From the NCBI GenBank assembly GCA_030765065.1, contig CM060988.1, positions 177,361,065 through 177,425,064 of the forward strand: a stretch of DNA of 64,000 bases, read 5' to 3'. The DNA comes from Deroplatys truncata. Taxonomy: Eukaryota > Arthropoda > Insecta > Mantodea > Mantidae. Shown here piece by piece: positions 1-63,573 of this stretch (position 1 is its first letter; every line of letters begins with the position of its first letter). The translations under genes were made by a program, and so were the position numbers. Below the pieces are notes generated by a model. The model saw only the letters and a program-made list of their open reading frames with translations. It had not been told where the DNA came from and made no database searches.

Positions 1-170
1 GCTGTTCACAGACACATACACACGGACATTTTTTTCTAAAAATGGTATATTTTGCATTAGGGGGCCTCAAAACATGTATTTCTGTGAATTCGAATTTTTG
101 CTACATTTTGCGTATTCACGTGATCTCGCTTCATACCTTATCTACCTACTAGGTACGTGGTAAAGAAAGT
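1..170 (-). mobile_element. Family A (A2) copy, cut by window edge
   Basis: Reads from the CA microsatellite to the reversed ACTTT end (AAAGAAAGT). Near its end, positions 101-132 replace about 10 expected bases with a stretch matching mariner transposase DNA at 2597-2628 (28 of 32 bases). The missing part lies outside the window. Confidence 0.85.
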
Positions 171-175
171 AAAAA

Positions 176-260
176 TCTAATGTGATACATTCACAGACTT
201 TCTCTATCCTCTATCGTTTACTAATGGATATACAAACTAGTCTTACTAAAGATTATTTTT
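176..260 (-). mobile_element. Family A (A2) copy, first half
   Basis: CAGA-end head of an older copy (TCTAATGTGATACATTCAC), broken at a T-run by the younger copy at 261-1093. The copy resumes at 1101. Confidence 0.85.
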
Positions 261-1093
261 ACTTTCTCTACTACGTATAGTAAGTAGGGGAAGTATTGTA
301 TTCCACCCAAAAATTCGATAACGAGATTTCAAGGGAAATATATGTTTTGTGACCACCTGAGTCCAAAAAAACCATTTTTGGAAACATGTCCGTGTGTGTG
401 TGTCTGTGAACAGCATAACTCAGATAAACACCAAACTTGGTATTTAGATTCAGTATCTTCCAGAGATGCGACAAGAAGGTTTTCAAGTAAATCCCCCCAC
501 CCCAGATTACCCTTTACATGGAAGATTTTTCGAAAATTTTAATTTTCTCAAAAATGGCTCTAACAATTTTGATTAAAATATCATATATTTAAGACATTTT
601 CATGACAAAATGAAATGTATATCTCGAATTTTCTGGGAATGTCTCCAAAAGCATTCTTCATTGTGAACGACGTTTACATAACTGGTAAACCATAAGAGAT
701 AGTCAAAATTTTACTACACAAAAAATGTAGATCGCATTAAAATACACAATTTATGTCATATACGTTTTATTGTTGAGTGAACTATTTTCGAGATATTGCT
801 TAGTTATTCCCTTAAATTTTCCAATATTTATACTTTTTTCAAATGGAAATTCGTTATTCATTCTTTTTACGTCCTGGACATACAAAGAGAATGGAATACT
901 CCACATAGCAACCAGCTCTTAAAATATTTGACTATCGCTTAAAGCCTACCAATTACCCTTGCATCTACAAGAAAATTAGCAATAAGATTAACATCTGGAT
1001 ATCTCGATTAACATGAAGCATATGGGGAATAAGCGTTTGTAAAAATAGTTTGTACAAGGGTCGAGAAAGTCATGTGAGTGTAACACTTAAGAA
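261..1093 (+). mobile_element. Family A1 copy nested in an A2 copy
   Basis: Full-length A1 element from ACTTTCTCTACTACG to the CAGA-type end. It is flanked by T on both sides and sits inside an A2 copy of opposite orientation whose halves abut it. Confidence 0.92.
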
Positions 1094-1100
1094 TTTTTTT

Positions 1101-1246
1101 ATTTTAATTCAAATAAACCTTTGTAGAAATGGCTACATTACACATTTCGTTATAGATACAAAGGGAATAGCGACAGTCAAATGTTTAAGAACTAGACGCT
1201 ATGTGCTGACCTTAAAATTCCTTACTGTTTCCATGGAATCTATTGT
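1101..1246 (-). mobile_element. Family A (A2) copy, second half
   Basis: Continues the A2 copy begun at 176: consensus segments ATTACACATTTCGTTATAG and CGATAGTCAAATG. Similarity fades at about 1246, so the rest of this copy is lost. Confidence 0.82.
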
Positions 1247-2394
1247 TTCAACAAATAGCCGCATCGTCATAAACTTGTTGGTACAAGAAATTCGTAGAAG
1301 ATGCTTGCATATGCAAAGGAAAAAATACTGGTCATTTTCGAATAACAAATAGTGCTCATGTTGAATGCCTAAAATAAAACTTAGAACTTTCCTGTATCCA
1401 GTGATGTATGGTATGCGTTTCTATAGTCATTCATTAGACACAAATATTTAAACTATGCTCCTTCTTTATGACTAGATTTTGAATAATTGATTAATTACAG
1501 CCAAGGTTTTAAAATCGTTAAATGGACTACAATGGGAATTGAACGATGAACCATATAAAATTCCTAATGCCTTTTCTTCTTGCCTTTACATGGAACACGT
1601 AAAGGGTAGATTGCGGTGAGGGATTTTCCTTAACATTTTTATATAAAATTTTTGGTGAACTTAAGGTAATGCATAAGTGAAAGTTAGACCAAAAATTGTA
1701 AATAATTAAACAAATATATGTTTTTATAATAAAATAACATGAATTCTAAACTTTAAGAATAAACAGTTTTTCGCACTTGGCGAATTTTAGCTACCGATTA
1801 ACTGAAGCTACAAATAAATCTATTTACCCTATTTCTTAGAAAAAGTTTTTTCGCATTTTTCCACACTCAAAATGCCCCACACGATGCAATTTCTTACTAA
1901 TTTGTTTCAAAAGCTTTGCACTGCCTCTCAAAAGTTCATTAAAGAATATTACCGCATACTCTTAATAAAATAGTTACCCCAATTTGAGAAATAGATTATT
2001 AGTCTTTAAAAATCAGAATTATAAGTACAAAAAGAAATAATTTTTTCTACAATAATTAGGGGTCAATACAAAAACGTATGAGTTCATATATGCTTTTGTA
2101 AACGTATTAACTGTAAAATCTGAATTTTTCACTTGAATATTTTTAAAAATACATGGTGTGGAGCATTCTTATTAGAACAATGAATTTACACAATAAAACT
2201 TGATATTTAAATAACCATACAAACTAGAATTTTGAAATAGGGCAAAAGCATTACTGTTATTATAGGTATTATGTGGCATAAATTCCAACAGGATATCTTA
2301 CATACTGTGAATTTTCCCAATTTCACAGGTGCATTATCTTAAATACCAAGTGTGATATTTATACGAAAGTGATGAACTGAGTTTTGAGATACTA
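1247..2394. other. AT-rich unannotated stretch
   Basis: No convincing gene, tRNA or recognised repeat. The sequence is AT-rich with stops in all frames. Confidence 0.5.
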
Positions 2395-2674
2395 GAAATT
2401 GCTTATATGGAATTTTTATCACACGAAGTAGCTTTTCCCGCTACAAGGAGATCTTGAACCGTGTGCGCAATTTATTCGTCAAAATTGTCCCGAGCTTTGA
2501 CGTATAAAGAATTGGCTGTTGCTACACGACAACGCCCATGCATATCGATTTTTGCTTGTCCAAAAGGAGCATTTAAGTCAATACGTCACCGGTCTGCTAT
2601 ATCTTGAGTATTCACGTGATCTCGCCTCGTGCAATTTCTTCTTTCACCGTTTGAAGCAAAAGCTACGTGGCTAA
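2395..2674 (+). pseudogene. Mariner transposase remnant, central to C-terminal part
   Basis: Three blocks match mariner (DDD) transposase. Block one reads IAYMEFLSHEV (about 2398-2433). Block two reads YKEILNRVRNLF (about 2442-2477). Block three (2513-2674) contains LLHDNAHAYR, the second catalytic Asp motif, and YSRDLASCNFF, the usual YSPDLAPCDFF third-Asp motif with Pro changed to Arg and to Ser. It ends LKQKLRG then stop. At least one frame change separates blocks two and three. The N-terminal DNA-binding region and the first catalytic Asp are absent and no TIR was found, so this is a dead fragment. It abuts a family A remnant on the right. Confidence 0.85.
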
Positions 2675-2689
2675 TCCCGCTGTTTAAAT

Positions 2690-2855
2690 TTGTTATAATC
2701 GCTTCAGTCTCATATACCCCTTATAGCTACAACAAAAGATGTACTTTCTGCAAACGTTTATCTCGATAACCATGAAGTAGATGGAATAATAAACGTTTAT
2801 AAGAATGGTTTGAGAAAAGTGGGTAGAGGAAGTCATGGGAATTTAACACATCAGA
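2690..2855 (+). mobile_element. Degraded family A 3' end
   Basis: Right-hand portion only: TGCAAACGTTTATCTCGAT through GTAGAGGAAGTCATG to ACACATCAGA. Diverged, older type. Confidence 0.7.
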
Positions 2856-2897: not shown

Positions 2898-3731
2898 ACT
2901 TTCTCTACTACGTATAGTAAGTAGGGGAATTATTTTATTCCACCCAAAAATTCGATACCGAGATTTCATCGGAAATATATGTTTTGAGACCCCTGAATCC
3001 AAAAAATGCATTTTTGGAAACATGGCCGTGTGTGTGTCCGTGAACAGCATAACTCAGAAGCGAACAGTCGGATAAACACCAAACTTGGTATTTAGGTTCA
3101 GTATCTTCCAGAGATGCGACACGAAGGTTTTCAAGAAAATCCCCTCATCCCAGATTACCCTTTACATGGAACATTTTTCAAAAAGTTTAATTTTCTCAAA
3201 ATGGCTCTAAGGATTTTGATTAAAATATTATATGTTTAAGATATTTTCAAGACAAATGAAATGTATATCTTAAATTTTCTGGGAATGTCTCCAAAAGTAT
3301 TCTTCATTGTGAACGACTTTACATAACTGGTAAACCATAAGAGATGGACAAAATTTTAGTACACAAAAAATGTAGATCGCGTTAAAATACACAATTTATG
3401 TCATATACATTTTTTTTTGTTGAGTGAACCAATTTCGAGATATTGCTTGTTATTCCCATAAATTTTTCAATACTTATACTTTTTCTCAAATGGAAATTCG
3501 TTATTTTTTTGTCCTGGTAATGCAAAGAGGATGGAATACTGCACATAGCAACCAGCTCTTAAAATATTTGACTATAGCTTAAAGCCTACCATTCCCCTTG
3601 CATCTACAAGACAATTAGCAATAAGATTAACATCTCGATGTCTCTATTAACATGAAGCATATGGAGAATAAGCATTTGTAAAAGTAGTTTGTAAAACAGT
3701 AGAGAAAGTCATGTGAGTGTAACACATCGGA
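2898..3731 (+). mobile_element. Family A1 copy, full length
   Basis: Both ends are present (ACTTTCTCTACTACG; TAACACATCGGA), with a TTTTTT run on each side. The internal TG tract is short. Confidence 0.92.
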
Positions 3732-3739
3732 TTTTTTCT

Positions 3740-5505: not shown

Positions 5506-6338
5506 ACTTTCTCTAATACGTATAGTAACTAGGGGAAGATTGCATTCCACCCAAAAATTCGATACCACGATTTCCCCGGAAATATATGTTTTGAGACCCC
5601 TTGAATCCAAAAAAACTATTTTTGGAAACATCTTCGTGTGTGTGTGTGTGTGTGTGTGTGTGAACAGCATAACTCAGAAACGAACAGTCGGATAAACACT
5701 AAACTTGGTATTTAGGTTCAGTATCTTCCAGAGATGCGACACGAAGGTTTTCAAGAAAATCCCCCCCACCCCAGATTACCCTTTACATGAAACATTTTGA
5801 AAATTTTAATTTTCTCAAAAATGGCCAACGATTTTGATTAAAATATCATATGTTTAAGATATTTTCATGAACAAATTAAATGTATATCTCGAATTTTCTG
5901 GGAATGGCTCCAAAAGTATTCATTGTGAACGACTTTTGCATAACTGGTAAACCATAAGAGATAGACAAAATTTTACTATACAAAAATGTAGATCGCATAA
6001 AAATACACAATTTATGTCATATACATTTTTTTGTTGAGTGAACCATTTTCGAAATATTGATTGTTATTCCCTTAAATTTTCCAATAATTTTTCTCAAATG
6101 GGAATTCGTTATTCATTTTTTTATGTCCTGGACATGCAAAGAGAATGGAATGCGCCACATAGTAACGAGCTCTTAAAATATTTGACTATCACTTAAAGCC
6201 TACCAATTCCCCTTGCACTTACAAGAAAATTAGCAATAAGATTAACATCTCGATTAACATGAAGCATATGGAGAATAAGCGTTTGTAAAAATAGTTTGTA
6301 CAAGAGAAGAGAAAGTCATGTGAATGTATCACATCAGA
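5506..6338 (+). mobile_element. Family A1 copy nested in an A2 copy
   Basis: Complete A1 copy inserted in the T-run of the A2 copy of opposite orientation that surrounds it. Ends ACTTTCTCTAATACG and ATCACATCAGA. Confidence 0.92.
5636..5661. repeat. (TG)n microsatellite
   Basis: About 13 TG units at the position where every family A copy carries a TG/CA tract. Confidence 0.9.
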
Positions 6339-6445: not shown

Positions 6446-7291
6446 ATCTGATGTGTTACACTCACATGACTTTCTCTTCTCTTGTACAAACTATTTTTAC
6501 AAACGTTTATTCTCCGTATGCTTCATGTTAATCGAGATGTTAATCTTATTGATAATTTTCTTGTAGATGCAAGGGGAATATGGTAGGTTTTAAGCGATAG
6601 TCAAATATTTTAACGCTGGTTGCTATGTGGCGCATTCCATTCTCTTTGCATGTCCAGGACATAAAAAAATGAATAACGAATTCCTATTTGACAAAAAGTA
6701 AAAGTATTGGAAAATTCAAACAATAACAAGGAATATCTCGGAAACAGTTCACTCCATAAAAACAGAATGTAACAAATTGTGTGTTTTAAGGAGATGTACA
6801 TTTTTTGTGTAGTAAACTTTTGTCTATCTTTTACGGTTTACCAGTTATTCAAATGTCATTCAGAATGAAGACAATTTTTGGGGACATTCCCATAAAATTA
6901 AACATATACATTTCATTTGCCACGAAAATATATTAAACATATGATATTTTAACCAAAGTCGTTAGCCATTTTTGAGAAAATTAAAATTTTCGAAAAATGT
7001 TTAGGTAAAGGGTAATCTGGGGTGGGGGGATTTTCTTGAAAACCTTCGTGTCGCATCTCTGGAAGATACTGAATCTAAATACCAAGTTTGGTGTTTATCC
7101 GACTGTTCGTTTCTGAGTTATGCTGTTCACAGACACACAGACATACACACACACACACACACACACGGACATGTTTCCAATTTTTTTTTATTCAGAGGGT
7201 CTCAAAACATGTATTTCCGGTGAAATCTCGGTATCGAATTTTTAGGTGGAATACAATACTTCCCCTACTTACTATACGTAGTAGAGAAAGT
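6446..7291 (-). mobile_element. Family A1 copy, full length
   Basis: Starts ATCTGATGTGTTACACTC and ends GTAGTAGAGAAAGT, with A on both sides (T|T in element orientation). Contains a CA tract near 7140-7168. Confidence 0.92.
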
Positions 7292-10011: not shown

Positions 10012-10604
10012 ACTTTCTCTACTACGTATATGAAGTAGGGGAAGTATTGTATTCCACCCAAAAATTCGATACCGAGATTTCACTGGAAATATGTTTTGAG
10101 ACCCCCTGAATCCAAAAAAGCATAACTCAGAAACGAACTGTCGCATAAACACCAAGTTCAGTATCTTCCAGAGATGCAAGACGAAGGTTTTCAAGAAAAT
10201 CCCCCACCCCAGATTACCCTTTACATGGAACATTTTTCGAAAATTTTAATTTTATCAAAAATGGCTCTAACGACTTTGCTTAAAATATCATATGTTTAAG
10301 ATATTTTCATGATAAATGAAATGTATATCTCGAATTTTCTGGGAATGTCTCCAAAAGTATTCTTCATTGTGAACGACTTTTGCATAACTGGTAAACCATA
10401 AGAGATAGACAAAATTTTACTACACAAAAAAAGTAGATCGCGTTAAAATACACAATTTATGTCATATACATTTTTTTGTTGAGTGAACCATTTTCGAGAT
10501 ATTGCTTGTTATTCCCTTAAATTTTTCAATACTTATACTTTTTCTCAAATTCGTTATTCATTTTTTTTGTTCTGGTAATGCAAAGCGAATGGAATGCGCC
10601 ACAT
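10012..10604 (+). mobile_element. Family A1 copy, first part (split by E1)
   Basis: Starts ACTTTCTCTACTACG and runs to GCGCCACATA, where a foreign element is inserted at TA. It continues at 11745. Confidence 0.9.
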
Positions 10605-10605
10605 A

Positions 10606-11743: not shown

Positions 11744-11744
11744 T

Positions 11745-11923
11745 AGCAACCAGCTCTTAAAATATTTGACTATCACTTAAAGCCTACCATATTCCCCTTA
11801 CACCTACAAGAAAAGTAGCAATAAGATTAACATCTCGATTAACATGAAGCATATGGAAAATAAGCGTTTGTAAAAATAGTTTGTACAAGAGTAGAGAAAG
11901 TCATGTGAGTTTAACACATCAGA
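11745..11923 (+). mobile_element. Family A1 copy, second part
   Basis: GCAACCAGCTCTTAAAATA to ACACATCAGA. Completes the copy begun at 10012. Confidence 0.9.
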
Positions 11924-22714: not shown

Positions 22715-23559
22715 TACATCTTCTACTGCGTATAATTAGGGGACGTATTGTATTCGACCCCAAATAAAATCGATACCAAGATTTCACCGGAAATTCATGT
22801 TTTGCGGTCCCTGAATAAAAAAAAAAGCATTTTTAGAAAAAGTCCATGTGTGTGTGTCTGTGAACAGCATAACTAAAAAACGAAATGTCATATAAACACC
22901 AAACTTGTTTAAATTTAGTATCTTCCAAAGATGCGACAGAGTGTTTTCAAGAAAATCCTCCCCACCACTTCAACTACCCTTTACAGGGAACATTTTTCAA
23001 AAATGTTGATTTCCTAAAAAATGGTCTAACGATTTTGATTAAGATATCAGATATTAAAGATATTTACATGACATATAAAATGTATATCTTGAATTTTCTG
23101 CGGATACCCTATGAAGTGCTCTTCATTCGGAAGGAATTTTGTATAATCTTGTATAACTGGTAAACAAGCTATACATGAAAACATACCATACAAAAATTAA
23201 TTCTCTTTAAAACACACGATTTACTTCAAATACGTTTTTCTGTGGCATAAGCCGTTTCTAAGATATCCGTTTGTTCAATACTAGTCATTCTTTTAGTCTC
23301 GTCAGTATTCAGTTGTTTCTCGCGATGTCATGGAAACAGTATGGAATTTTAAGGCCAGCATATAGCGCCCAGTTGTTAAACATTTGACTATCGCTGTTCC
23401 CTTTGTATCTATAACGAAATGTGTAATGTAGCTGTTTCTGTCAGGGTTTATTTGAATAAAAATGTAGTGGATAGAAAAATAAACTTTAGTAAGAATAGTT
23501 TGTATACGCACTAGTAAAGACAGATGATACAGAAAGTTATGGGAATGTATCACATTAGA
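22715..23559 (+). mobile_element. Family A (A2) copy, full length
   Basis: Begins in a T-run with ACATCTTCTACTGCG and ends TATCACATTAGA. Includes the A2 block with the reversed CAACTGGGCGCTATATGC. Confidence 0.88.
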
Positions 23560-25280: not shown

Positions 25281-26092
25281 ATCTGATGTGTTACACTCAC
25301 ATGACTTTCTCTACTCTTGAACAAACTATTTTTACAAACGCTTATTCTCCATATGCTTCATGTTAATCGAGATGTTAATCTTATTGCTAATTTTCTTGTA
25401 GATGCAAGGGGAATATGGTAGGTTTTAAGCGATAGTCAAATATTTTAAGAGCTGGTTGCTATGTGGAGTGTTCCATTCTCTTTGCATTACCAGAACAAAA
25501 ACAAATGAATAACGAATTTGAGAAGAAGTATAACTACTGGAAAATTTAAGGGAATAACAAGCAATATCTCGAAAATGGTTCACCCCAACAACAAAAAATG
25601 TATATGAACTTAAATTGTATATTTTAACGCGATTTGTCTATCTCTTATGGTTTACCAGTTATGCAAAAGCCGTTCACAATGAAGAATATTTTTGGAGACA
25701 TTCCCAGAAAATTCGAGATATACATTTCATTTGTCATGAAAATATCTTAAACATATGACATTTTAATCAAAATCGTTAGAGCCATTTTTGAGAAAATTAA
25801 AATTTTCGAAAAATGTTACATGTAAAGGGTAATCTGGGGTGGGGGGATTTTCTTGAAAACCTTCGTGTCGCATCTCTGGAAGATACTGAACCTAAATACC
25901 AAGTTTGGTGTTTATCCGACTGTTCGTTTCTGAGTTATGTTGTTCACAGACAGACACACACGGACATGTATCCAAAAATGCTTTTTTTGGATTCAGGGGG
26001 TCTCAAAACATGTATTTCCGGTGAAATCTTGGTATCGAATTTTTGGCTGGAATACAATACTTCCCCTACTTACTATACGTAGTAGAGAAAGT
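25281..26092 (-). mobile_element. Family A1 copy nested in an old family A copy
   Basis: ATCTGATGTGTTACACTC to GTAGAGAAAGT. Same orientation as the older copy it splits. Contains an 89-codon frame that is a by-product of the repeat. Confidence 0.92.
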
Positions 26093-28750: not shown

Positions 28751-29550
28751 ATTTGATGCGTTACACTTGCATGACTTTCTCTACTCTTGTACAAACTATT
28801 TTTACAAACGCTTATTCTCCATATGCTTCATGTTAATCGAGATGTTAATCTTATTGCTAATTTTCTTGTAGGAGCAAGGGGAATTGCTAGGCTTTAAGTG
28901 ACAGTCAAATATTTTAAGACCTGGTTGCTATGTGAAGCATAGTAACGAATTCCCATTTGAGTAAAGTATAAGTATTGGAAAATTCAAACAAATAACAAGG
29001 AACATCTCGGTAATGGTTCACTCTATAAAAAATGTATATGACATAAATTGTGTGCTTTAATGAAATTTACATTTTTTGTGTATAGATAAACCTTGTGTAT
29101 GTTTTACGGTTTACCAGTTATGCCAAAGCCATTCAGAATGAAGGTGGCTTTTGGGGACATTCACAGAATATTTAAGATGTAATTTCATTTATAATGAAAA
29201 TATCTTATACATGTGCTATTTTAATCAAAATTGTTAGAGCAATTTTTGAAAAAAAAACATCAACATTTTGGGAAAGTGTTTCATGTAAAAGGTAATCTGG
29301 TGTGGGGGATTTTCTTAAAAATCATTGTGTTGCATCCTTAGAAGCTACTAAACTGAAACACCAAGTTTGGTATTCATCCGTCTTTTTGTTATTGAGTTAT
29401 GCTGTTAACAGACACACACATGGACATGCTTCCAAAAGTGCTTATTTGGATTCAGGGGGTCTCAAAACATGTATTTCTGGTGAAATCTCGGTATCGAATT
29501 TTTGGGTGGAATGCAATACTTCCCTACTTACTATACGTAGTAGGGAAAGT
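28751..29550 (-). mobile_element. Family A1 copy
   Basis: TTTGATGCGTTACACTTGC to GTAGTAGGGAAAGT. Near full length and somewhat more diverged than other A1 copies. Confidence 0.9.
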
Positions 29551-29889: not shown

Positions 29890-30715
29890 ACTTTCTCTAC
29901 TACGTATAGTAAGTAGGGGAAGTACTGTATTCCACTCAAAAATTCGATACCGAGATTTCACCGGAAATACATGTTTTGAGACCCCCTGAATCCAAAAAAG
30001 CATTTTTGGGAACATGTCCATGTGTTTGTCTGTGAACAGCATAACTCAGAAACGAACAGTCGGATAAACACCAAACTTGGTATTTATGTTTAGTATCTTC
30101 CAGAGATGCGACACGAAGGTTTTCAAGAAAATCCTCCCACTCCAGATTACTCTTTACATGGAACATTTTTAGAAAATTTTAATTTTCTCAGATATGACTA
30201 ACGATTTTGATCAAAATATCATATGTTTAAGATATTTTTATGACAAATGAAATGTATATCTGGAATTTTCTGGGAATGTCTCCAAAATTATTCTTCATTA
30301 TGAACGACTTTTGCATAACTGGTAAACCATAAGAGATAGACAAAATTTTGCTGCACAAATAATGTAAACCGCGTTAAAATATAGAATTTATGTCATATAC
30401 ATTTGTTTTGTTGAGTGAACCAATGTCGAGATATTGCTTGTTATTCCCTTAAATTTTCCAATAGTAATACTTTTTCTAAATTCGTTATTCACTTTTTTTG
30501 TCCTGGTAATACAAAGAGAATGGAATGCTCCACATAGCAACCAGCTCTTAAAATATTTGACTATCACTTAAAGCCTAGCAATTCCCGTTGCATCTAGCAA
30601 GAAAATTAGCAAAAACATTAACAATCTTGATTAACATGAAGCATATGGAGAATAAGCGTTTGTAAAAATAGTTTGTACAAGAGTAGAGAAAGTCAAGTGA
30701 GTGTAACACATCAGA
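29890..30715 (+). mobile_element. Family A1 copy, full length
   Basis: ACTTTCTCTACTACG to AACACATCAGA. T-runs on both sides. Confidence 0.93.
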
Positions 30716-33427: not shown

Positions 33428-34937
33428 GGGTGGACCATTTAAATTGAGACTGTACAATATCTCCAAAACTAAGCGTTGTGGAAAGAAATGTCTTGAATAA
33501 AGGTTGCTTGGTATTATGGGGGAAAGTGAATGCCATTAGTCGTGTTTTATTTGGAGGATGTTGTGATGGTCCCTTTAGATTCAATTTATTTTTTTTAAAT
33601 TGTAACTTACTTTTTTATATTGTTTTCTCACTACTTATAAAAAACTAAACAACATTTGCATAAAGCAGTTTGAAATTGTTCTTAAACCAACGTAAATAAT
33701 AACGAAAGTTCTGAATGACTGTGCACGGAGAGCGCAATGAATGGTTGGGTCATCCATGGATGGTCATTGGAGGATCAAGTTATGTTTCGTAATTGGGAAC
33801 CAGCGTTTTTACTTCCTCTACTACGTATAGTAAGTAGGGGAAGTATTGTATTCCACCAAAAATTGATACAGAGATTTCACCGGAAATACATGTTTTGAGG
33901 AGCCCTGAGTTCAAATAAAGCGTTTCTGGAAACATGTCCGTGTGTGTATGTATGTATGTATTTATTTATTCTGCAATTGTGTACTTCCCGGTGGCAGAAT
34001 TAAACTGTTAACAGCATAACTCAAAAACAAGTAGGTAGATTAATACCAAACTTGGTATTTGAGTTTAGTGTCCTTTAAGGATGTGATACAAAGATTTTGA
34101 AGAAAATCCCCTTACCCTAGACTACTTTTTACATTGAACGTTTTACACACTTTTTATTTCCTCAAAAAATGCTTTAAAGATTTTGACTAAAATATGTTTA
34201 AGATATTTTTATGGCAAATTTAATGTATATCTTCAAATTTCTGGGAGTGTCCCCAAAAGTCTTCATTCTGAATGACTTTCGCATAACTGTTAAACCGTAA
34301 GACACAGACAAAAAGTTTACTACACAAAAACGTATTTCAGGTTAAAACACACAATTTATGTCATTTACATTTTTTTGTGGAGTGAACTATTTCAGAGATA
34401 TTCGTTGTTGTTACTTTGAATTTTCTAATACTTATACTTTTTCTCAACTGGTAATTCCGTATTTGTATTTTTATGTCCTGGACATGCAAAGAGAATGGAA
34501 TGCTCCACACAGCAACCAGCTCTTAAAACATTTGACTATCACTTAAAGCCTACCATATTCCCCTTGCACCTACAAGAAAATTACCAATAAATTAGTTTCT
34601 GCAAAGGTTTAACTCGATTAACATGAACTAGATGGAGAATAAGCCTTTGTAAAAATAATTTTAAAAGAGTAGAGAAGGCTATTTGAGTGTAGCCACATCA
34701 GATTTTTTTATTTTGTTTTCTTATTCCTCATCAAAAAATAAACAGCTTAGAAAATGTAGATTTCCATTTAAAAAATTAAATTGACCCTAAAATGACCAAC
34801 ATAACGTCCTCCAAATAAAACACGACTAATTAAATTTATTTTCCCCTATAATATCAAGCAACTTTTATTAAAGGCATTTCTTTCTACGACGCTTAGTGTT
34901 GGAGATATTGTACAGTCTCAACTTAAATGGTTCACCC
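33428..34937. mobile_element. Element with long inverted repeats (foldback-type), hosting a family A copy
   Basis: Arms 33428-33600 and about 34750-34937 are inverted copies with roughly 85% identity by eye. The left starts GGGTGGACCATTTAAATTG and the right (reversed) GGGTGAACCATTTAAGTTG. Both continue GAGACTGTACAATATCTCC. TA or TATATA flanks both ends. Between the arms is a family A copy plus short spacer. No transposase seen, so non-autonomous. Confidence 0.8.
33811..34702 (+). mobile_element. Family A copy inside the foldback element
   Basis: ACTTCCTCTACTACG to AGCCACATCAGA. Intermediate between A1 and A2. Carries an extra (TATG)n-type segment of about 60 bp at 33947-34010 in the microsatellite position. 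Confidence 0.88.
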
Positions 34938-37850: not shown

Positions 37851-38674
37851 ACTTTCTCTACTACGTATAGTAAGTAGGGGAAGTATTGCATTCCACCCAA
37901 AAATTCGATAGCGAAATTTCACCGGAAATATATGTTTTGAGACCCCCTGAATCAAAAAATAGCATTTTTGGAAACATGTCCGTGTGTGTGTGAACAGCAT
38001 AACTCAGAAACGAACAGTCGGATAAACACCAAACTTGGTATTTAGGTTCAGTATCTTCCAGAGATGCGACACGAAGGTTTTCAAGAAAATCCCCCCATCC
38101 CAGATTACCCTTTACATGGAAAATTTTTCGAAAATTTTAATTTTCTCAAAAATGGCTCTTAACGATTTTGATTAAAATATCATATGTTTAAGATATTTTC
38201 ATGACAAATAAAATGTATATCTTGAATTTTCTGGGAATGTCTCCAAAAGTATTCTTCATTGTGAACGACTTTTGCATAACAGGTAAACTATAAGAGATAA
38301 GACAAAATTTTACTACACAAAAAATATAGATCGCGTTAAAATACACAGTTTATAACATATACATTTTTTGTACAGTGAACCATTTTCGACATATTGCTTG
38401 TTATTCCCTTAAATTTTCCAACACTTTTTCTCAAAAGGGAATTCGTTATTCATTTTTTATGTCCTGGACATACAAAGAGAATGGAATGCGCCACATAGCA
38501 ACCAGCTCTTAAAATATTTGACTATCGCTTAAAGCCTACCAATTTCCCTTGCATCTACAAGAAAATTAGCAATAAGATTAACATCTCGATTAACATGAAG
38601 CATATGGAGAATAAGCGTTTGTAAAAATAGTTTGCACAAGAGTAGAGAAAGTCATGTGAGTGTAACACATAAGA
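37851..38674 (+). mobile_element. Family A1 copy nested in an A2 copy
   Basis: ACTTTCTCTACTACG to AACACATAAGA, flanked by T-runs, inside an oppositely oriented A2 copy. Confidence 0.93.
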
Positions 38675-39496: not shown

Positions 39497-39643
39497 ACTT
39501 TCTCTACTACGTATAGTAGGTAGGGGAAGTATTGTATTCCATCCAAAAATTCGATACCGAGATTTCACCGGAAATACATGTTTTGAGACTCCCTGAATCC
39601 AAAAAAAGCATTTTCGAAAACATGTCCGTGTGTGTGTCTGTGT

Positions 39644-39677
<34 letters not shown>

Positions 39678-40322
39678 CTGTGAACAGCATAACTCAGAAA
39701 CGAACAGTCGGATAAACATCAAACTTGGTATTTAGGTTCAGTATCTTCCAGAGATGCGACACGAAGGTTTTCAAGAAAATCCCCCCACTCCAGAGTACCC
39801 TTTACGTGGAACATTTTTCGAAAATTTTAATTTTCTCAAAAATGGCTCTAACGATTTTGATTAAAACATCATATGTTTAAGATATTTTTATGACAAATAA
39901 AATGTATATTTGAATTTCCTGGGAATGTCTCCAAAAGTATTCTTCATTGTGAACGACTTTTGCATAACTGGCAAACCAGACAGACAAATTTTACTACACA
40001 ATAATGTAGATCGCGTTAAAATACACAATTTATGTCATATACATTTTTTTTTGTTGAGTGAACCATTTTCGAGATATTTCTTGTTATTCCCTTAAATTTT
40101 CCAATACTGATACTTTTTCTCAAACTCGTTATTCATTTGTTTATGTTCTGGACATGCAAAGAGAATGGAATGCGTCACATAGCAACCAGCGCTTAAAACC
40201 ATCTACAAGAAAATTAGCAATAAGATTAACATCTCGATTAACATGAAGCATATGGAGAATAAGCGTTTGTAAAAATAGTTTGTACAAGAGTAGAGAAAGT
40301 CATGTGAGTATAACACATCAGA
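39497..40322 (+). mobile_element. Family A1 copy, full length
   Basis: ACTTTCTCTACTACG to AACACATCAGA. Long TG/TC-interrupted microsatellite at 39627-39679. Inserted in an older AT-rich element, T on both sides. Confidence 0.93.
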
Positions 40323-40790: not shown

Positions 40791-41919
40791 AACTAAAAAT
40801 TCTATGTCAATATTTTACCGCAAAACATGATTTGAGGCTCCTGAACCCCCGAAAAGCATTTTTAGAAAAATGTACATATGTGAGCGTGTATCTGAAAAAA
40901 GCGTAACTCAAAAATGAAAAGTCGGATGAATATCAAATTTTGTATTCAGTTTCAGCACCTTCAAAATATGCGACACGAAGACTTTCAAAAAATCCCCACA
41001 ACCTAACAATCCTTCACATGCATGATTTAAACACCTATGTTAATGATATTTACTTGAAAAATAAAATGTATGTGTTGAATGTTCTGGGAATAGCCTTTGA
41101 AGTCCTTTTCATACGGAATGAATTTTGTATAATCTTGTATAAGTGATAAACGTTAGGCGTTAGACAAAAATTGCTACAAAAATTGTAGATCTCTTTAAAA
41201 TATACAATTAATTTTAAATAATTTTTATTGTAGCATCAGCCATTTCCGAGATATCGTCATTAGTGGTTCGAATATTTCAATGTCTATCTATTTCTTTTTT
41301 CATTTATTTCTCGGGATGTCATGGAAACAGTATGGAATTTTAAGGCCAGCATATAGCGTCCAGTTGTTAAACATTTGACTATCGCTGTTCTCTTTGTATC
41401 TATAACGAAATATGTAATGAAGCTATTTCTTTCTTCAGTTGTTTCTCGCGGTGTCATGGAAACAGTATGGAATTTTAAGTCCAGCATATAGCGTCCAGTT
41501 GTTAAACATTTGACTATCGCTGTTCTCTTTGTATCTATAACGAAATATGTAATGTAGCTATTTCTTTCTTCAGTTGTTTCTCGCGGTGTCATGGAAACAG
41601 TATGGAATTTTAAGTCCAGCATATAGCGTCCAGTTGTTAAACATTTGACTGTCGCTGTTCTCTTTGTATCTATAACGAAATATGTAATGTAGCTATTTCT
41701 TTCTTCAGTTGTTTCTCGTGATGTCATGGAAACAGTATGGAATTTTAAGTCCAGCATATAGCGTCCAGTTGTTAAACATTTGACTGTCGCTGTTCTCTTT
41801 GTATATATAACGAAATGTGTAATGTAGTTGTTACTGCAAAGGCTTATCTCGCTTAAAATGGAGTAGATACGAGAATAAATCTTCGTAAGAATAATGTGTA
41901 TACCCACATGGAAAGTTTG
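40791..41919 (+). mobile_element. Family A (A2) copy enlarged by a tandem amplification
   Basis: Diverged start (CCAACTAAAAATTCTATG) to TGTATACCCAC. Contains four tandem 135-bp units (41300-41840), which lengthen the copy to about 1.13 kb. The right end is cut where the mariner region begins. Confidence 0.86.
41300..41840. repeat. 4 x 135-bp tandem repeat within family A
   Basis: GTCATGGAAACAGTATGG recurs at 41318, 41453, 41588 and 41723, exactly 135 bp apart, with few differences between units. 135 is 45 codons, so a minus-strand frame stays open through the array (41284-41949). Confidence 0.95.
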
Positions 41920-47041: not shown

Positions 47042-47250
47042 TTCTGATATGATCACTCACATAACATTCTCTACTCTTGTAGAAACTATTTTTCTCCACC
47101 TACTTCCTGTTATTCCAGATATCCAGATGTTAATCTTATTGCCCATTTTCTTGTAGATGCAACGGAATATGGTAGTATTTAAGCGATAGTCAAATCTTTT
47201 ATGAACTGGTTGCTATGTGGACCTTCCATTCTCTTTGCATGGCAGGACAT
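47042..47250 (-). mobile_element. Family A 3'-end fragment, first of three in series
   Basis: TCTGATATGATCACTC to GGCAGGACAT, cut at the A-run where the consensus reads GGACATAAAAAA. Confidence 0.88.
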
Positions 47251-47256
47251 AAAAAA

Positions 47257-47529
47257 ATCTGATGTGTAACACTCACATAACTTTCTCTACTCTTGTGCAA
47301 ACTAGTTTTACAAACGCTTGTTCTCCATCTACTTCATGTTAATCGAGATAAACATTTGCAGACTCTATCTTATTGCTAATTTTCTTGTAGTTGTAAGGGG
47401 AATATATATTTACAAGGGCAATTTGGAAATACAGTAGCCTTTAAGCACATACATATCTCTTAATAGCTGGTTGCTAGGTGCAGCACCATTATCTTTCCCA
47501 AAGATTAATGCTCTTTGCATATCCAAGAC
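47257..47529 (-). mobile_element. Family A 3'-end fragment, second in series
   Basis: TCTGATGTGTAACACTC to ATCCAAGACA, cut at the same internal A-run. Variant with GGTGCAGCACC. Confidence 0.88.
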
Positions 47530-47535: not shown

Positions 47536-48248
47536 ATCTGATGTGTTACACTCACATGACTTTCTCTATTCTTGTACAAACTATTTATACAAACGCTTAT
47601 TCTCCATTTACTTCATGTTAATCGATATAAACATTTTTCTTGTAGATGTAAGGGGAATATATACTTACAAGGGCAATTTAGAAATACAGTAGCTTTAAGC
47701 ACATACATATCTCTTAATAGCTGGTTGCTAGGTGCAGCACCATTCCCTTTCCCACAGATTAATACTCTTTGCATATCCAAGACAAAAAAATGAATAACGA
47801 ATTTCCATTTGAGAAAATAAGTATTGAAAAATTTAAGGGAATAACAAGTAATATCTCGAAAATGGTTCACTCAACAAAAGAAATGTATATGACATAAATT
47901 GTGTATTTTAACGCAATCTACATTTTTTGTGTAGTAACATTTTGTCTATCTCTTATGGTTTACCAGTTATGCAAAAGTCCTTCACAATGAAGAATACTTT
48001 TGGAGACATTCCCAGAAAATTCGAGATATACATTTTATTTTTCATGAAAATATCTCAAACATATGATATTTTAATCAATATCGTTAAGAGCCATTTTTGA
48101 GAAAATTAAAATTTTCGAAAAATGTTCCATGTAAAGGGTAATCTGGGGTGGGGGGATTTTCTTGAAAACCTTCGTGTCGCATCTCTGGAAGATACTGAAC
48201 CTAAATACCAAGTTTGGTGTTTATCCGACTGTTCGTTTCTGAGTTATG

Positions 48249-48292
<44 letters not shown>

Positions 48293-48412
48293 CACACACA
48301 CATGCTTTGTTTGGATTCAGGCGGTCTAAAGGGATGTATTTCCGGTGAAATCTCGGTATTAATTTTTGGGTGGAATGCAATATTGCCACTTGCTGTACGT
48401 AGTAGAGAAAGC
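47536..48412 (-). mobile_element. Family A1 variant, complete, third in series
   Basis: TCTGATGTGTTACACTC to GTAGTAGAGAAAG. Same variant as 36149. Complete to its ACTTT end. Confidence 0.92.
48252..48300. repeat. (AC)n microsatellite in a family A copy
   Basis: About 18 AC units followed by an imperfect part, at the usual family A microsatellite site. Confidence 0.92.
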
Positions 48413-48711: not shown

Positions 48712-49500
48712 TTTTTCTCTATCACGTAGCTAGTAGGTAGAGAAATGATTACATTCCACCCAAAATTCGGTACCGAGGTTTCACTGGAAATACGTATTTT
48801 GAGGCTCCCTGAATCCAAAAAAAAAGAGCTTTGTATGTGTCTATGAACAGCATAACTCAAAAACAAAAAGTCGGACAAATATCAAATTTGGTATTTGGAT
48901 TCAGTATCTTTCAAAGATTCTCACCTAATCCCCCAACCCAGACTACCCTTTACATAGAACATTTTTCGAAAATTTTTATTTCCTCAAAATTAGCTCTAAC
49001 AATTTTTGTTAAAATATCATATATTTAAAATATTTTCATGACAAATAAGACAAATATCTTGAATTTTCTGGGAATGTTCCCAGAAGTCCTCTTGTTTCTG
49101 AACGGCTTTTGTGTAACTGATAAACTGTAAGAGATAGACATATTTTTCTACATAAAAATGTAGAGCTCGTTGAAACACTCAATTTATGTCACATACATTT
49201 TTTTCGTGGAATGAACCATTTCCGAGATATTCGTTGTTATTTGTTTAAATTTTCCAATACTTTACTTTTTCTCAAATGGGAATTTGTTATTCGTTTTTTT
49301 CTGTCCTGGACATGCAAAGAGAATAAAATACTCCACATAGCAACCAGCTTTTAAAGGATTTGACTATCGCTTAAAGTCTACCATATTCCCCTTGTACCTA
49401 AAGAAAATTAGCAATAAGACATGAAACAGATGGAGAATAAGCGTTTGTAAAAAATATTTGTACAAAAGTAGAGAAAGTAATGCGAGTGTAACACATCAGA
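48712..49500 (+). mobile_element. Family A copy, intermediate type
   Basis: TTTCTCTATCACGTAGC to AACACATCAGA. Shares A1-type right half but A2-like start (TAGTAGGTAGAG). Confidence 0.87.
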
Positions 49501-49893: not shown

Positions 49894-50741
49894 ACTTTCT
49901 CTACTACGTATAGTAAGTAGGGGAAGTATTGTATTCCACCCAAAAATTTGATACCAAGATTTCACCGGAAATATATGTTTTGAGACCCCCTGAATCCAAA
50001 AAAAAAGCATTTTTGGAAACATGTCTTGTGTGTTTCTGTGTGTCTGTTTGTGAGTCTGTGTGTCTGTGGACAGCATAACTCAGACGAACAGTCAAACAAA
50101 CACCAAACTTGGTATTTAGGTTCAGTATCTTCCAGAGATGCTACACGAAGGTTTTCAAGAAACTTCCCCCACCCCAGATTACCCTTTACATGGAACATTT
50201 TTCCAAAATTTTAATTTTCTCAAAAATGGCTAACGATTTTGATAAAATATTATATATTTAAGATGCTTTCATGACAAATAAAATGTATATCTAAAATTTT
50301 CTGGGAATGTCTCCAAAAGTATTCTTCATTGTGAACGACTTTTGCATAACTGGTAAACCATAAGAGATAGACAAAAGTTTACTGCACAAAAAATGTAGAT
50401 CGCGTTAAAATACACAATTTATGTCATTTACATTTGTTTTGTTGAGTGAACCATTTTAGAGATATTGCTTGTTAATCCCTTAAATTTTCCAATACTTATA
50501 CTTTTTCTCAAATTCGTTATTCATTTTTTGTCCTGGACATACAAAGAGAATGGAATACTCCACATAGCAACCAGCTCTTAAAATATTTGACTAGCACTTA
50601 AAGCCTAGCAAATCCCCTTGCATCTACAAGAAAATTAGCAATAAGATTAACATCTCGATTAACATGAAGCATATGGAGAATAAGCGTTTGTAAAACTAGT
50701 TTGTACAAGATTAGAGAAAGTCATGTGATTGTAACACATCA
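49894..50741 (+). mobile_element. Family A1 copy, full length
   Basis: ACTTTCTCTACTACG to AACACATCAA. T-runs on both sides. Confidence 0.93.
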
Positions 50742-51905
50742 ATTTTTTTAAATGTTTGTGCTCTCGTTCAAACCAGCTTTAACTAGTCCAAGTTGCTGCG
50801 AGTTTGTTGCACTCCAGAAGATTTGGACAGCGATTCTGGGCCATGCTGTGCATAAAGGCTTTAAGGGTATTGTTATCTCCAGCAGATGTTGAGTGATATT
50901 TAAACTGCCAGTCAGGATAACTCCACAACTAATATTTCAGGGGGGGGAATTTAATTTCTGTTAAGTCATGAGGGCTATTTTCATAAACCAGCCCTTGTAT
51001 TCCTTTGTTGCTATATTGCCTTAACAATGTCTACAGCTGTTTCTTTATTAAAGCAATGTGGAGATGTTGTAAGAGAGTATACACTTTAAAAAGGAGACAA
51101 GACGAGAGTATAATCCCGTAACTAGACCATATTCGTTGGAGCAGTGCGCGTGAATTTTCCAAATTAGTTAGTGAAATTACGCAGAACACAAGCCAGCTCT
51201 CGTGTCCCCTTGTTTTGTAGCCGTCCTCAATGGACTGCAATATACGATCTCTTAGCTGAGTCACCGCAAGATGCCTGCTTAATTTCGTAGCTTATGTTGG
51301 TAACTCCACATGCTGTGAATTCATTTCAAGGGTGGATGGAAGAATTGCATTGTTCCAGATAACGCGTGATCGACATTAGAGCCAAGATCACTGAACTTCA
51401 AAAACTCAATCATCGTTCACAGCGTGCATTATACACTGAATGTACAGTTTCGTACAAAAAATTTTGACGATACTGTTAGACCACAATAGCGATTTTTACT
51501 TCAAAATACTGCCAAAATTACTTAACATTTAAACCTACTTAGCGCTAATGCTTCTGTATCCGATTGACTTAGGTAATCCCAGGACACATTCACCAGACTT
51601 TCCCTACCCATTCCTATAGGAAACATTCTTACATCTTCTTGTTCTTTTTCTTCTTGTTAATAAAGATAAACATTTATTCCACGTTTACACATTTCGTTTA
51701 ATGATAACTAATTGTTCTTTCACACAAGGCTAGTATAGTACAAGGATTGAAAGGTATATTCAATGCCAGTGCCGGGATTTGAACCACGGATCTTCCACTC
51801 TACGCGCGGAATTCCTCTCTCTCTCATTATCACTAATTTTTTTACAAGTTGTACAAAACTATACAAAATTCATACAGAATGAAGAGAAGCTTCACAGGCT
51901 ATTAA
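50742..51905. other. Intronic stretch, mostly unassigned
   Basis: Contains a tRNA-like patch on the minus strand near 51765-51800 (ATCCGTGGTTCAAATCCCGG) that resembles the SINE-C head, and a scrap of A2 at about 51850-51895. Otherwise nothing. Confidence 0.4.
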
Positions 51906-57654: not shown

Positions 57655-58471
57655 TCTCATGTGTTTTACTCACACGACTTTCTCTACTCTTGTACAAACT
57701 ATTTTTACAAACGCTTATTCTCCATATGCTTCATGTTAATCGAGATGTTAATCTTATTGCTAATTTTCTTGTAGATGCAAGGGGAATTGGTAGGCTTTAA
57801 GCGATAGTCAAATATTTTAAGAGCTGGTTGCTATGTGGAGTAATCCATTCTCTTTGTAAGTCCAGGACATAAAAAAACGAATAACGAATTCCCATTTGAG
57901 AAAAAGTATAATAACTGGAAAATTCAAACAAATAACAAGGAATATCTCTGAAATGGGTCACTAAAAAAAGTATAAGACGACATAAATTGTGTGTTTTGAC
58001 GATATGTACATTTTTTGTGTTGTAAAATTTTGTCTATCTCTTGTCTATCTCTCAAAATGAAGAGGAATTTTGGGGACATTCTCAGAAAATTCAAGATATA
58101 CATTTCATTTGTTATAAAAATGTCTTAAGAACATGATACTTTAATCAAAATAGTTAGAGCCATTTTTGAAAAAATAAATATTTTCGAAAAATGTTCCATG
58201 TAAAGGTGTAGTCTGGTGTGGGGGATTTTTATTGAAAATCTTCATGTTGCATCCTTGTAAGACACTAAACTCAAATACCAAGTTTGGTATTTATCCGACT
58301 TTTCGTTTTTGAGTTATGCTGTTCACAGACACACACACACGGACATGTTTCCAATAATACTTTATTTGGATTCAGGACACCTAAAAACATGTATTTCCGG
58401 TGAAATCTCGGTATCGAATTTTTGGGTGGAATGCAATACTTCCCCTACTTACTATACGTAGAAGAGAAGGT
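57655..58471 (-). mobile_element. Family A1 copy nested in an old family A copy
   Basis: TCTCATGTGTTTTACTC to GTAGAAGAGAAGGT. Near full length, same orientation as the host copy. Confidence 0.91.
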
Positions 58472-60780: not shown

Positions 60781-60782
60781 TA

Positions 60783-61432: not shown

Positions 61433-61776
61433 AATCTGATGTGACAAATTCGCATAACTTCTCTACCCTCCATTATTATTGGGTATACAAATTTATCTTA
61501 CTAAAGCTTATTTTTATATCTGCTTCATTTTATTCCAAATAAACCTTTTTATAAATAGCTACATTACACATTTCGTTATAGATACAAAGAGAACAGCGAT
61601 AGTCAAATGTTTAACAACTGGACGCTATATACTGGCTCTAAAATTCCATACTGTTTCCATAACATTACGAGAAACAACTGAATGTTGACAGGACTTTAAA
61701 AGAATGGGCAAGCAAAGAAAAATTTGAACGATTAATAACGGGTATCTCAGAAGTTGCTTATGCCACAAGAAAAGTT
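61433..61776 (-). mobile_element. Family A (A2) copy, first part
   Basis: ATCTGATGTGACAAATTCG to CACAAGAAAAGTT. Split by a SINE-B with ATTTGACATA duplicated. Confidence 0.9.
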
Positions 61777-61786
61777 ATTTGACATA

Positions 61787-62028
61787 AATTAAATTGAATT
61801 GAGTTTTATTTATAGACGCTCTTTAACTACTATGGTCCTTAGCATTCCATTCTATATTGGGGGTGAAAGACCGTAATTTTGCTCAGAGGCCTCTTATCAG
61901 GCTTGAGGTTCTTTTACGTGCCGTAAATTTACGACACAAGACCACAGGTTTTACTTCTCTTCCGAAGTAAGAGAACCCGCGATCTCGGGAACTAGAAGCT
62001 ATCACGGTACCACTAGTCCACGGAGGAC
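61787..62028 (-). mobile_element. SINE-B, reversed, perfect 10-bp duplication
   Basis: On the minus strand GTCCTCCGTGGACTAGTGG head, GTTCCCGAGATCGCGGGTTC and body to an AATTTAATT-type tail. Flanked by ATTTGACATA at 61777-61786 and 62029-62038. Confidence 0.94.
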
Positions 62029-62560
62029 ATTTGACATACAGAACGTGTTTTAAAGAGATCCACAAATTATGTGTAGCATGTCTTCGTCCATCGTGTGACG
62101 TTTAGCAATTATACAAGACTATATATAAAATCCGTTCCTAACGAAGAGGAGTTCAAAAGCTAGTCCCAGAAAATTCAAGATATACGTGTTATTTCTCATG
62201 TAAATATATTTAAAATATGGTATTTTAATCAAAATCTTGCTTGACATTTTTTAAAAAATCAAAACTTTCGAAAAATATTTCATGTAAAGGTTAGTCTGGG
62301 GTGGGGAGATTTTCTTGAAAGCCTGTGTGCCGCATCTTTGCAAGGTACTGAACTCGTATACCAAGTTTGGTGTTGATCCGACTTTTCGTTTTTGAGTTAT
62401 GCTGTTCACAGACACACACACACACACATGGACCATTCTCTAAGAAGGCCTTTTTGGATTCAGGGAGCCTCAAAACGTGTATTTACGGTAAAATCTCCAT
62501 ATTTAATTTTTGGGTGGAATACAACACTTCCCCTACTTACTATACGTAATACAGAAAGTA
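62029..62560 (-). mobile_element. Family A (A2) copy, second part
   Basis: From ATTTGACATACAGAACG to ACGTAATACAGAAAGT. Completes the copy begun at 61433. Confidence 0.9.
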
Positions 62561-62959
62561 ATAAAAAGTGATTAAATCGCATTAAGATCTGCATTAGTGT
62601 ATGGAACAGAAACAAAAGCAGAAAACAGAAAAAATAAACAGTTACTCAGAACAAAGGAAAACAACACATTCAGGGAAATAAATAGACAGAATAAAAAACG
62701 AAGATATAATAAAATAATGTGATATAAAGGATACAATAACATTTGTAAAAGAAAGGAACGTTGGAATGAAAATATTTGCAGAGCAGAAGAAACAAAATTT
62801 ATTATAATAGCACGAAACGAACTACCAGCATGACGTAGAAATGTTGGAAGACCACTAAAACAGATAGAAGAATGTTTTTTGTCGCCATCGGACTCTACAT
62901 GAAGACAAAAAGGTCTGGCCTAATAGAAGAAGAAGACAGAAAAGTAATGTTATGTAAGA
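62561..62959. other. A-rich unannotated stretch
   Basis: Very A-rich plus strand, no recognised gene. Could be the degraded coding region of an old element. Confidence 0.3.
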
Positions 62960-63024
62960 TAGAATGTATGTAGAAGAGAGATAAAACTGTCGGATAGAGA
63001 ATGTATGTGAATGTAACAAATCTG
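62960..63024 (+). mobile_element. Family A 3'-end scrap
   Basis: GATAGAGAATGTATGTGAAT to AACAAATCTGA, abutting the next copy through a T-run. Confidence 0.7.
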
Positions 63025-63030
63025 ATTTTT

Positions 63031-63573
63031 ATTTTCTCTACAACGTACATAGAGAGGGTGCTGCATTCCAGCAAAGATTCGATACCGACACTTATCCCCA
63101 AATTTATGTTTTGAGACAACTTGAATCCAAAAAAAGCATTTTCAGTAAAATGTCCGTGCGCGCGAGTCCTGTATGTGTGTGTCTGTGAACACCATAACTT
63201 AAAACAAAAAGTCGGATCTTCCAAAGATCGACGGAAGATTTTGAAGAAAATCCCCCACCCTAACTATGCTTTACAGGGAACATTTTTCGTAATTTTTTGA
63301 TTTTATAAAACGAGCTCCAATGATTTTAATTTTCTGAAGTCCTCTTCCTTCGGAAACATTTTAACACTTAAACGTTAAGTGAAAAACGAAATCTTACTAC
63401 GCACACAAATATACATCTCTTTAGAACACCCAATTTATTTCACGAACTTTTTATGGCATCAACCATTTGTTAAATACTTAAACTTCTGTCGTTTTTCGGT
63501 CGTTTCTCGCGATCATGGATGGAATTTTAAGGCCAGCATATAGCGTCCAGTTCTCAAACATTTGACTACAGCA
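63031..63573 (+). mobile_element. Family A (A2) copy, truncated
   Basis: ATTTTCTCTACAACG to AACATTTGACTACAGC, then a T16-type run. The CAGA end is absent. Confidence 0.86.

Follow-up and report, generated by a model that had tools for sequence, protein, structure and literature searches.

A high-copy Helentron/Helitron2-type family in Deroplatys truncata and its Rep/PIF1-encoding relatives

Helentrons move by a mechanism that is poorly known, and their non-coding copies are often found without a coding partner. Strict Helentrons are marked by an apurinic-type endonuclease at the C terminus of their Rep/helicase protein, while canonical (Helitron1) elements start with 5' TC, end with 3' CTRR and insert between A and T. 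The available portion of Thomas et al. 2014 (PMC4067079) describes HINE/DINE-1 elements as having subterminal inverted repeats of 12-15 bp, a 3' palindrome and a microsatellite, with an inverted repeat lying partly inside the left one in DINE-1, and as inserting into T-rich targets with extra Ts that come from the element and without target duplication. In Fusarium oxysporum, Helitron2-type elements form composites that combine several 5' ends with a single 3' end, and these have been reported to arise via self-insertion, starting at the outer left end and stopping at the first right end, and the part of that report at hand does not mention variation in T number (PMC5148889).

Here, we analysed a stretch of 64,000 nucleotides (the window) of the 4.3-billion-base genome of Deroplatys truncata, in which a non-coding ~830-bp element (family A) recurs. 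With a probability of about 94%, family A represents the non-autonomous, HINE-type component of a rolling-circle transposon family of the Helentron/Helitron2 kind. Reading of the copies placed ACTTTCTCTACT together with a short inverted repeat at the left end and, at the right end, the inverted 12-mer followed by 22 nt that contain an ATGTG/CACAT palindrome and finish with CAGA; apart from the short inverted repeat, these features are as described in an earlier sequence-only reading of the window. The (sub)terminal inverted repeats are asymmetric, with the right one inset, as in Helentron/Helitron2 (HINE) elements, and the short inverted repeat, CTACT-ACGTATAGTA-AGTAG, is partly nested in the left repeat in the manner of DINE-1; its single-strand fold gave a z of -2.44, with 7 of 200 shuffles equally good. 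The 3' palindrome (ATGTG-7 nt-CACAT) is found in both the small and the coding elements, and its stability was no better than that of shuffles (fold z 0.13 and -0.62). The microsatellite had been placed in the middle of the element; it is a GT run that actually begins near position 132 of ~830, and a run of three GTs is missing from one of three copies inspected. With termini ACTTTC...CAGA and T-run targets, family A departs from canonical Helitron1 elements, and the earlier statement that there is no CTRR end was borne out. Compared with HINE/DINE-1 elements as described in the portion of PMC4067079 available, family A shares the subterminal and nested left repeats, the 3' palindrome, the microsatellite, T-rich targets, extra Ts and the lack of target duplication. 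By contrast, its extra Ts are nearly fixed at five rather than variable, and its right 12-mer lies 22 nt from the end rather than 38-60 bp as in mite families.

That this is a genuine repeat family is indicated by 45 occurrences of ACTTTCTCTACT (one mismatch at most) in the window, compared with a mean of 0.28 and a maximum of 3 in 100 dinucleotide shuffles; literature containing this string apparently includes none on transposons. With one family A copy as the blastn query, 54 matching pieces covered 34.8% of the window, and three copies covered 36.5%. Coverage reached 45.05% after six pieces of older related subfamilies (B) joined the three-copy query set, so the earlier figure of roughly 45% for one family stands only with older subfamilies included and is too high for family A alone. 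The window has 14 near-full-length family A copies, and 33 more were found across 20 further 9.9-kb loci of the genome. Perfect left ends were counted 116,408 times genome-wide, and extrapolation gives a total of ~350,000-380,000 copies, an estimate that also sets family A apart from the HINE/DINE-1 elements covered in the available text of PMC4067079.

Full-length copies on the plus strand lie at 261..1092 (86.9% identical by blastn to 29890-30715, query 1-826), 2898..3731 (the query of the whole-genome search), 5506..6338, 29890..30715 (826 bp, the coordinate reference, with its own T7 run at element position 604-610), 33811..34702, 37851..38674, 39497..40322 (with a long GT microsatellite), 48714..49500 (76% identical) and 49894..50743. 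Those on the minus strand are at 6447..7291 (left flank GTATT), 25282..26092, 28754..29550, 47537..48411 and 57655..58471. Because both flanks of the 5506..6338 copy resemble family sequence (~75-86%), it was probably inserted in an older family copy. The right flank of 47537..48411 is a T7 followed by a family-internal piece (624-688) at 47435-47496, and stacked right parts (692-826 then 604-826) occupy 47043..47403 on the minus strand. A left part (1-647) at 10012..10605 is separated by ~1.1 kb from a right part (646-826) at 11744..11923, both on the plus strand, and a subfamily B copy, related at both ends, lies at 22715..23559 on the plus strand.

Family A is inserted at T-runs, in an orientation fixed relative to them. 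Among 51 pairs of left and right ends (49 of the right ends distinct), T was found on both flanks in 39, at the left flank in 46 and at the right flank in 43, indicating that T flanks are common but that their attribution to almost every copy was slightly too strong; a single T on the left had also been described, where five Ts are usual instead (TTTTT in 46 of 70 left ends and TTATT in 8). Paralogous filled sites carried ~5 Ts more than empty sites, as seen for 33811..34702, where 5+7 Ts in the filled site compare with 7 and 5 in two empty relatives. Among 15 copies with candidate empty sites, a T overlap of 2-5 was present in nine and a clean T gain was absent in six. Such a gain would also be left by a MITE, a DNA transposon moving by cut-and-paste, if it had inverted repeats of 12 bp and duplicated a TTTTT target of 5 bp, and the inverted 12-mers at both ends of family A fit this as well. 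However, the pentamer on the left has no counterpart on the right. Genome-wide, TTATT precedes 8,833 left ends compared with 92,437 preceded by TTTTT (9.6%), which is 14 times the left TATTT control (0.67%), while TTATT follows 551 right ends compared with 81,925 followed by TTTTT (0.67%). In four intact TTATT pairs the right side consisted of T-runs (one after G) and never of TTATT, and pentamers deviating from TTTTT agreed between left and right in 0 of 25 pairs. The extra Ts are therefore not a target duplication, and a duplication of at least 2 bp, which would have spoken against the sequence-only reading and which the filled/empty comparison seemed to yield, is refuted; it is excluded by counts for the TTATT class and by parsimony only for the TTTTT class. 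Insertion between Ts without duplication, as claimed earlier, thus holds for the lack of duplication but overlooks the ~five Ts that insertion brings. The genome-wide pentamer counts settle a point that T-rich targets usually mask, namely extra Ts without duplication. As for TTATT as a possible sub-lineage mark, the alignment had just 2 full TTATT copies and thus no power. Given also the asymmetric ends with the right repeat inset by 22 nt, and the Rep and PIF1 encoded by long elements with such ends, we regard the MITE explanation as very improbable.

The five extra Ts could be part of the left end, making the element TTWTT-ACTTTC...CAGA with the target before the T-run, or they could be placed at the right end, making it ACTTTC...CAGATTTTT with the target after TTWTT. 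Of 74 right ends, 47 are followed by 5-8 Ts. The left edge is sharp (position -6 is T in only 30%) while the right edge is soft (T at +6 in 70%, +7 in 53% and +8 in 46%), with an A or G preceding the T-run at 8 of 74 right ends, and these features speak for the left end. By contrast, the part of PMC5148889 available describes Fusarium Helitron2-type elements as ending in ATTTT, and places Helitron2 insertions between TTTT and a following T or C, which speaks for the right end. Assignment of the Ts to the left end is thus tentative, at slightly less than an even chance; the present filled/empty pairs are blind to which end owns the Ts because nearly every target is a T-run of ~five or more.

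Coding elements of ~10.4 kb in the same genome contain an open frame of 2,324 aa with Rep (PF14214) and PIF1 (PF05970). A profile search gave at least 152 PF14214 matches genome-wide (150 of 291 candidates scored), and 18 stop-free frames of 2,108-2,543 aa were found among the matches listed, all 18 with a PIF1 match ~2 kb downstream of Rep. In the two coding copies read, the left end is 74/76 and 93/94 identical to the small-element consensus (97-99%), while the right end reads ...GTAGAGAAAGTTATGTGAATGTAACACATCAGA followed by T7 or T5. A 54-base coding-type right end has 30 exact occurrences in the genome, all 30 on the same strand and 4.7-6.3 kb downstream of Rep, with 27 at 5,007-5,042 from the Rep domain; a frame of at least 2,108 aa is present in 17 of these 30 elements, and the exact 54-base end is missing at 12 of 42 Rep loci compared. 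The search for a long partner proposed in the sequence-only reading thus found elements with both end types, near-identical on the left and related on the right, and with Rep (HUH) and a PIF1-type helicase in one frame, supporting its Helentron-like interpretation. The coding element's own protein may mobilise family A, although the right ends of the two are only 83/111 identical (75%). No PF14529 (endonuclease) match fell inside coding elements among the best 150 of 25,627 candidates, and no significant match was obtained with 53 aa from close to the end of the coding frame; ~520 aa beyond the PIF1 match leave room enough for a C-terminal endonuclease. OTU domain matches numbered 6 genome-wide (E <=0.1), none of them near listed Rep matches by eye. 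On the domains found, the family is of Helentron/Helitron2 type in the broad sense.

Canonical (Helitron1) remains seem to be present in the genome as well, and family A might accordingly consist of their deletion derivatives, given that other Rep loci have the best PF14214 scores and that a family A copy adjoins one of them, L018, which looks canonical. However, this neighbouring copy runs antisense to Rep and is truncated at position 310, and L018 was rejected as an autonomous partner on these grounds. Family A also ends with CAGA rather than CTRR, is inserted at T-runs rather than between A and T, and has its type of ends on the other Rep class in 30 of 30 cases, leaving a canonical origin extremely improbable. 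We give equally little credence to a poly-T-targeting (SINE-like) retroposon, which would account for the T-run target and the nearly fixed number of extra Ts but not for two fixed termini, nor for a DNA-transposon partner whose left end is the same and whose right end is related.

In the preferred Helentron/Helitron2 reading, the Rep protein would nick the left end, one strand would be copied or peeled as far as the palindrome at the right end, and this strand, or a circle, would be joined into a T-run. The five Ts would form part of the moved unit at one of its ends. For a copy sitting within another's T-run, transfer would proceed from the outer left end and halt at the first right end, or may overrun it to the next, by which stacked composites would spread. 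A nested insertion in the family's own T-run was seen at L039 8197-9070, where the filled site has T5+T7 and five empty relatives, with flanks 85-97.5% identical, have T7 or T6. Left-end neighbours less than 2 kb apart lay on the same strand in 19 of 20 cases and right-end neighbours in 10 of 10 (first 100 ends listed for each; ~1.2 expected). These counts (19 versus 10) were rejected as a polarity test, as the two lists span different stretches and some left pairs resemble inverted segmental copies.

Stacking seems to extend to the coding elements. Three 16-base probes taken 5.0, 4.2 and 3.7 kb upstream of Rep matched the small-element consensus 16/16 at positions 363, 541 and 333, indicating that small-element units succeed one another in the coding 5' region, and probes at -3.3 and -3.0 kb gave no small-element match. 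Two coding copies contain small-element sequence repeatedly in their 5' region, and from the probes in these 2 copies only we infer that the coding element has internal left ends, with units of ~620-710 bp that seem to stack. Asymmetric inverted repeats and self-insertion composites are common to family A and the Fusarium Helitron2-type elements, as far as the available part of PMC5148889 describes them. The duplicated 5' piece is typically <200 bp in Fusarium (PMC5148889), however, compared with the longer units here, and the present family further differs in that the site used is a T-run within the element itself and that the stack is found in two coding copies. We see an even chance that the coding element's left end was donated by its own non-autonomous derivative, with the right end (75%) representing an older lineage. 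A small element would have entered a T-run in the coding element's 5' region, and later transfers would begin at the outermost left end. If so, parasite and master would initiate at a common site, and this could contribute to the small element's copy number in the hundreds of thousands. The stacked left ends illustrate how self-insertion can reshape such elements. With a family estimated at a third of a million copies and 30 exact coding-type 3' ends (17 with a frame >2,100 aa) in one genome, natural ends are at hand on which the choice of start, stop and target can be tested.

Like family A, Cg_HINE of the Pacific oyster is described in the accessible part of PMC7492417 as having a left inverted repeat, a microsatellite in the left part and T-rich insertion without duplication. 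Satellite-like central arrays are found in Cg_HINE (PMC7492417), whereas in family A the copies within the window have the GT microsatellite as the only array found; one older-subfamily stretch does have a 135-bp repeat. This tandem repeat (4 copies at 41288..41827, no strand given, in sequence whose tiles are high-copy) is perhaps a central repeat of the type described for DINE-1/HINEs. By eye, its unit resembles older-subfamily sequence near 1140-1240. The window also contains a Tc1-like transposase frame at 27726-28478.

The left end of family A, ACTTTCTCTACT, occurs 45 times in the window with at most one mismatch (0.28 expected). Its CTACT is able to pair with an AGTAG located ten bases further (fold z −2.44). 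A GT microsatellite begins near position 132 of the element, and the right end reads AGTAGAGAAAGT, then CATGTGAGTGTAACACATCAGA; the 3' palindrome, considered as a fold, was no better than chance. The sequence-only reading had assigned about 45% of the window to the family. This figure holds for the family in its wide sense, the coverage reaching 45.05% once six older-subfamily pieces joined the blastn queries, but not for family A queries, with which a single copy returned 54 pieces (34.8% of the window) and three copies covered 36.5%. The window contains 14 near-full-length copies, and another 33 came from 20 fetched loci that had been picked for holding close relatives of one window copy; these 47 copies diverge by 1.6-15.5% from their consensus (median 4.2%), and the 14 window copies by 2.6 to 15.5%.

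Flank statistics from 70 left-end and 74 right-end matches revealed five Ts with a sharp edge on the left (T share 91, 94, 80, 91 and 91% from −5 to −1, and 30% at −6) and five or more Ts with a soft edge on the right (80, 86, 92, 93 and 91% from +1 to +5, then 70, 53 and 46%), with T at both sides in 39 of 51 left/right pairs. If the five Ts were a duplicated target, left and right pentamers should agree. Exact genome-wide counts showed that the left 38-mer (116,408 occurrences) is preceded by TTTTT in 92,437 cases, TTATT in 8,833 and TATTT in 615, making TTATT a real left-hand class at 9.6% of TTTTT. By contrast, the right 41-mer adjoins TTTTT in 81,925 cases and TTATT in 551, so that the TTATT class is missing at right ends in these counts (0.67% of TTTTT, the level of the TATTT control). 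Agreement was likewise found in none of the 25 pairs, among 51 local ones, that carry a non-TTTTT pentamer on at least one side. Thus, the five Ts are ruled out as a duplicated target, by these counts for the TTATT class and by parsimony for the TTTTT class. About five Ts are extra in filled sites. Paralogous empty sites, sought for 47 family A copies, yielded candidates for 15: nine show a junction overlap of 2-5 Ts, in five the presumed empty site contains 2-64 extra bases, and one lies in a simple repeat. In the elements that Thomas et al. 2014 (PMC4067079) describe in their account of the boundaries, the boundary Ts belong to the element and vary in number, whereas their number is nearly fixed in family A.

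The genome (4.29 Gb in 818 contigs, with the window at C14:177361065-177425064) gave 152 matches to the Rep domain PF14214. Among the matches listed, 18 sit in stop-free frames of 2,108-2,543 aa, and PIF1 (PF05970) follows ~2 kb downstream in all 18. Element ends were located by 16-20-base probes that sat equally far from Rep in two copies, one on contig C9 and one on C1; probes alike between the two copies were scored as inside the element and unlike ones as outside, and the ends were then read directly. The coding element starts with ACTTTCTCTACTACGTATAGTAAGTAGGGGAAGTATTGCATTCC, preceded by T6 and T5 in the two copies read, and ends with GGTGTAGAGAAAGTTATGTGAATGTAACACATCAGA, then T7 or T5, the C9 copy spanning 66062627 to 66073038 (10,412 bases) and the C1 copy 10,430 bases. 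As an exact 54-base pattern, this right end recurs at 30 places in the genome, always with a Rep domain upstream on the same strand, at 5,007-5,042 bases in 27 cases and at 4,722, 4,960 and 6,275 in the rest; frames of 2,108 aa or longer occur in 17 of these 30 elements, and 12 of 42 Rep loci compared lack the pattern in exact form. The coding elements are near-identical and have open frames, which suggests that they moved recently. Five of their frame lengths (2261, 2324, 2345, 2387 and 2408) are spaced by multiples of 21 aa, hinting at an in-frame 63-bp tandem repeat whose copy number varies, although others fall outside this series. The 20 best PF14214 matches (loci L009-L028), 17 of them with internal stops, seem to be another class of Rep element than family A's partner; family A is nearly absent there (1.1% of 69 kb).

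Compared with the small-element consensus, the coding element is identical at 74/76 and 93/94 positions at its left end and at 83/111 at its 3' end, and ...ATGTGAATGTA... is common, by eye, to right ends of the older subfamily and the coding element. Probes of the C9 copy at −5000, −4200 and −3700 from Rep matched consensus positions 363, 541 and 333 (16/16 each), the C1 copy carrying the same probe sequence offset by a few bases, and those at −3300 and −3000 had no match to this consensus. Given the left end at −5376 from Rep, these match positions would require, by rough arithmetic, consecutive 5' units of ~620 and ~710 bp. The first unit is as long as the stretch that separates the left end and the element's own T-run, at 615-623 of the consensus. 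In the simplest reading, a small element would have inserted in a T-run within the coding element's 5' region, and subsequent transfers would have started from the new outermost left end.

Self-insertion is seen at locus L039, where a family A copy (8197-9070) lies within another copy's T-run: the filled site reads CA-T5-element-T7-G, and five empty relatives with 85-97.5% identical flanks have T7 (three) or T6 (two). Loci L043 and L039 also carry [1-826][604-826] arrays without a family A piece directly to the left. These fit composites that moved past a first right end; the rival explanation is a nest whose left part was lost. In the first 100 entries of the listing of perfect left ends on C1 (the whole genome has 116,408), 20 neighbours lie less than 2 kb apart where chance predicts 1.2, and 19 of these 20 share a strand. 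Their spacings group at 443-478, 608-625, 832-899 and 1059-1068, with 671, 1284 and 1610 outside. For the first 100 listed right ends, close neighbours were on the same strand in 10/10 cases, with 202-279 as one spacing cluster. If the direction of insertion is set by the T-run, stacking on one strand is to be expected. Self-insertion composites bearing several 5' ends are likewise described in the Fusarium material of PMC5148889. Left-end spacings also recur on opposite strands at C1 13.83-13.85 Mb and 8.18-8.19 Mb (443 and 1059 versus 443 and 1068; 477 versus 478), which looks like inverted segmental duplications.

Combined, the Rep/PIF1 partner, asymmetric ends, lack of target duplication and composites lead us to infer that family A moves by rolling circle, and its ends suggest that the coding element's Rep/PIF1 protein moves it. 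A search for the endonuclease typical of Helentrons placed none of the 150 best of 25,627 PF14529 candidates in the coding elements, and a 53-aa piece near the end of their frame gave no significant match.

Left ends were perfect over 38 bases in 21 of 69 cases in the window and targeted loci (for the window by itself, 7 of 21), so the 116,408 perfect ends would scale to ~350,000-380,000 genome-wide if these loci are representative. Since the seven in the window represent a four-fold excess over the 1.74 from the genome mean, family A's genome share is, roughly, nearer 9% than 36%.

The window further contains a plus-strand open frame with Tc1/mariner-type transposase domains at 27726-28478 (PF01498, E 1.3e-13; PF13358, E 2.5e-8) and tandem arrays of 161-bp units at 44900-45189 and 105-bp units at 63695-64000, whose consensus units have GGCGGACAGTTAGC in common and which are probably one satellite family. 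A minus-strand tRNA-like match at 43545-43617, just above the gathering score (32.9 bits versus 29), could be a pseudogene or a repeat of tRNA origin. Among the contigs listed, C16 measures 707 Mb versus 134-339 Mb for the others and could represent a sex chromosome of very large size.
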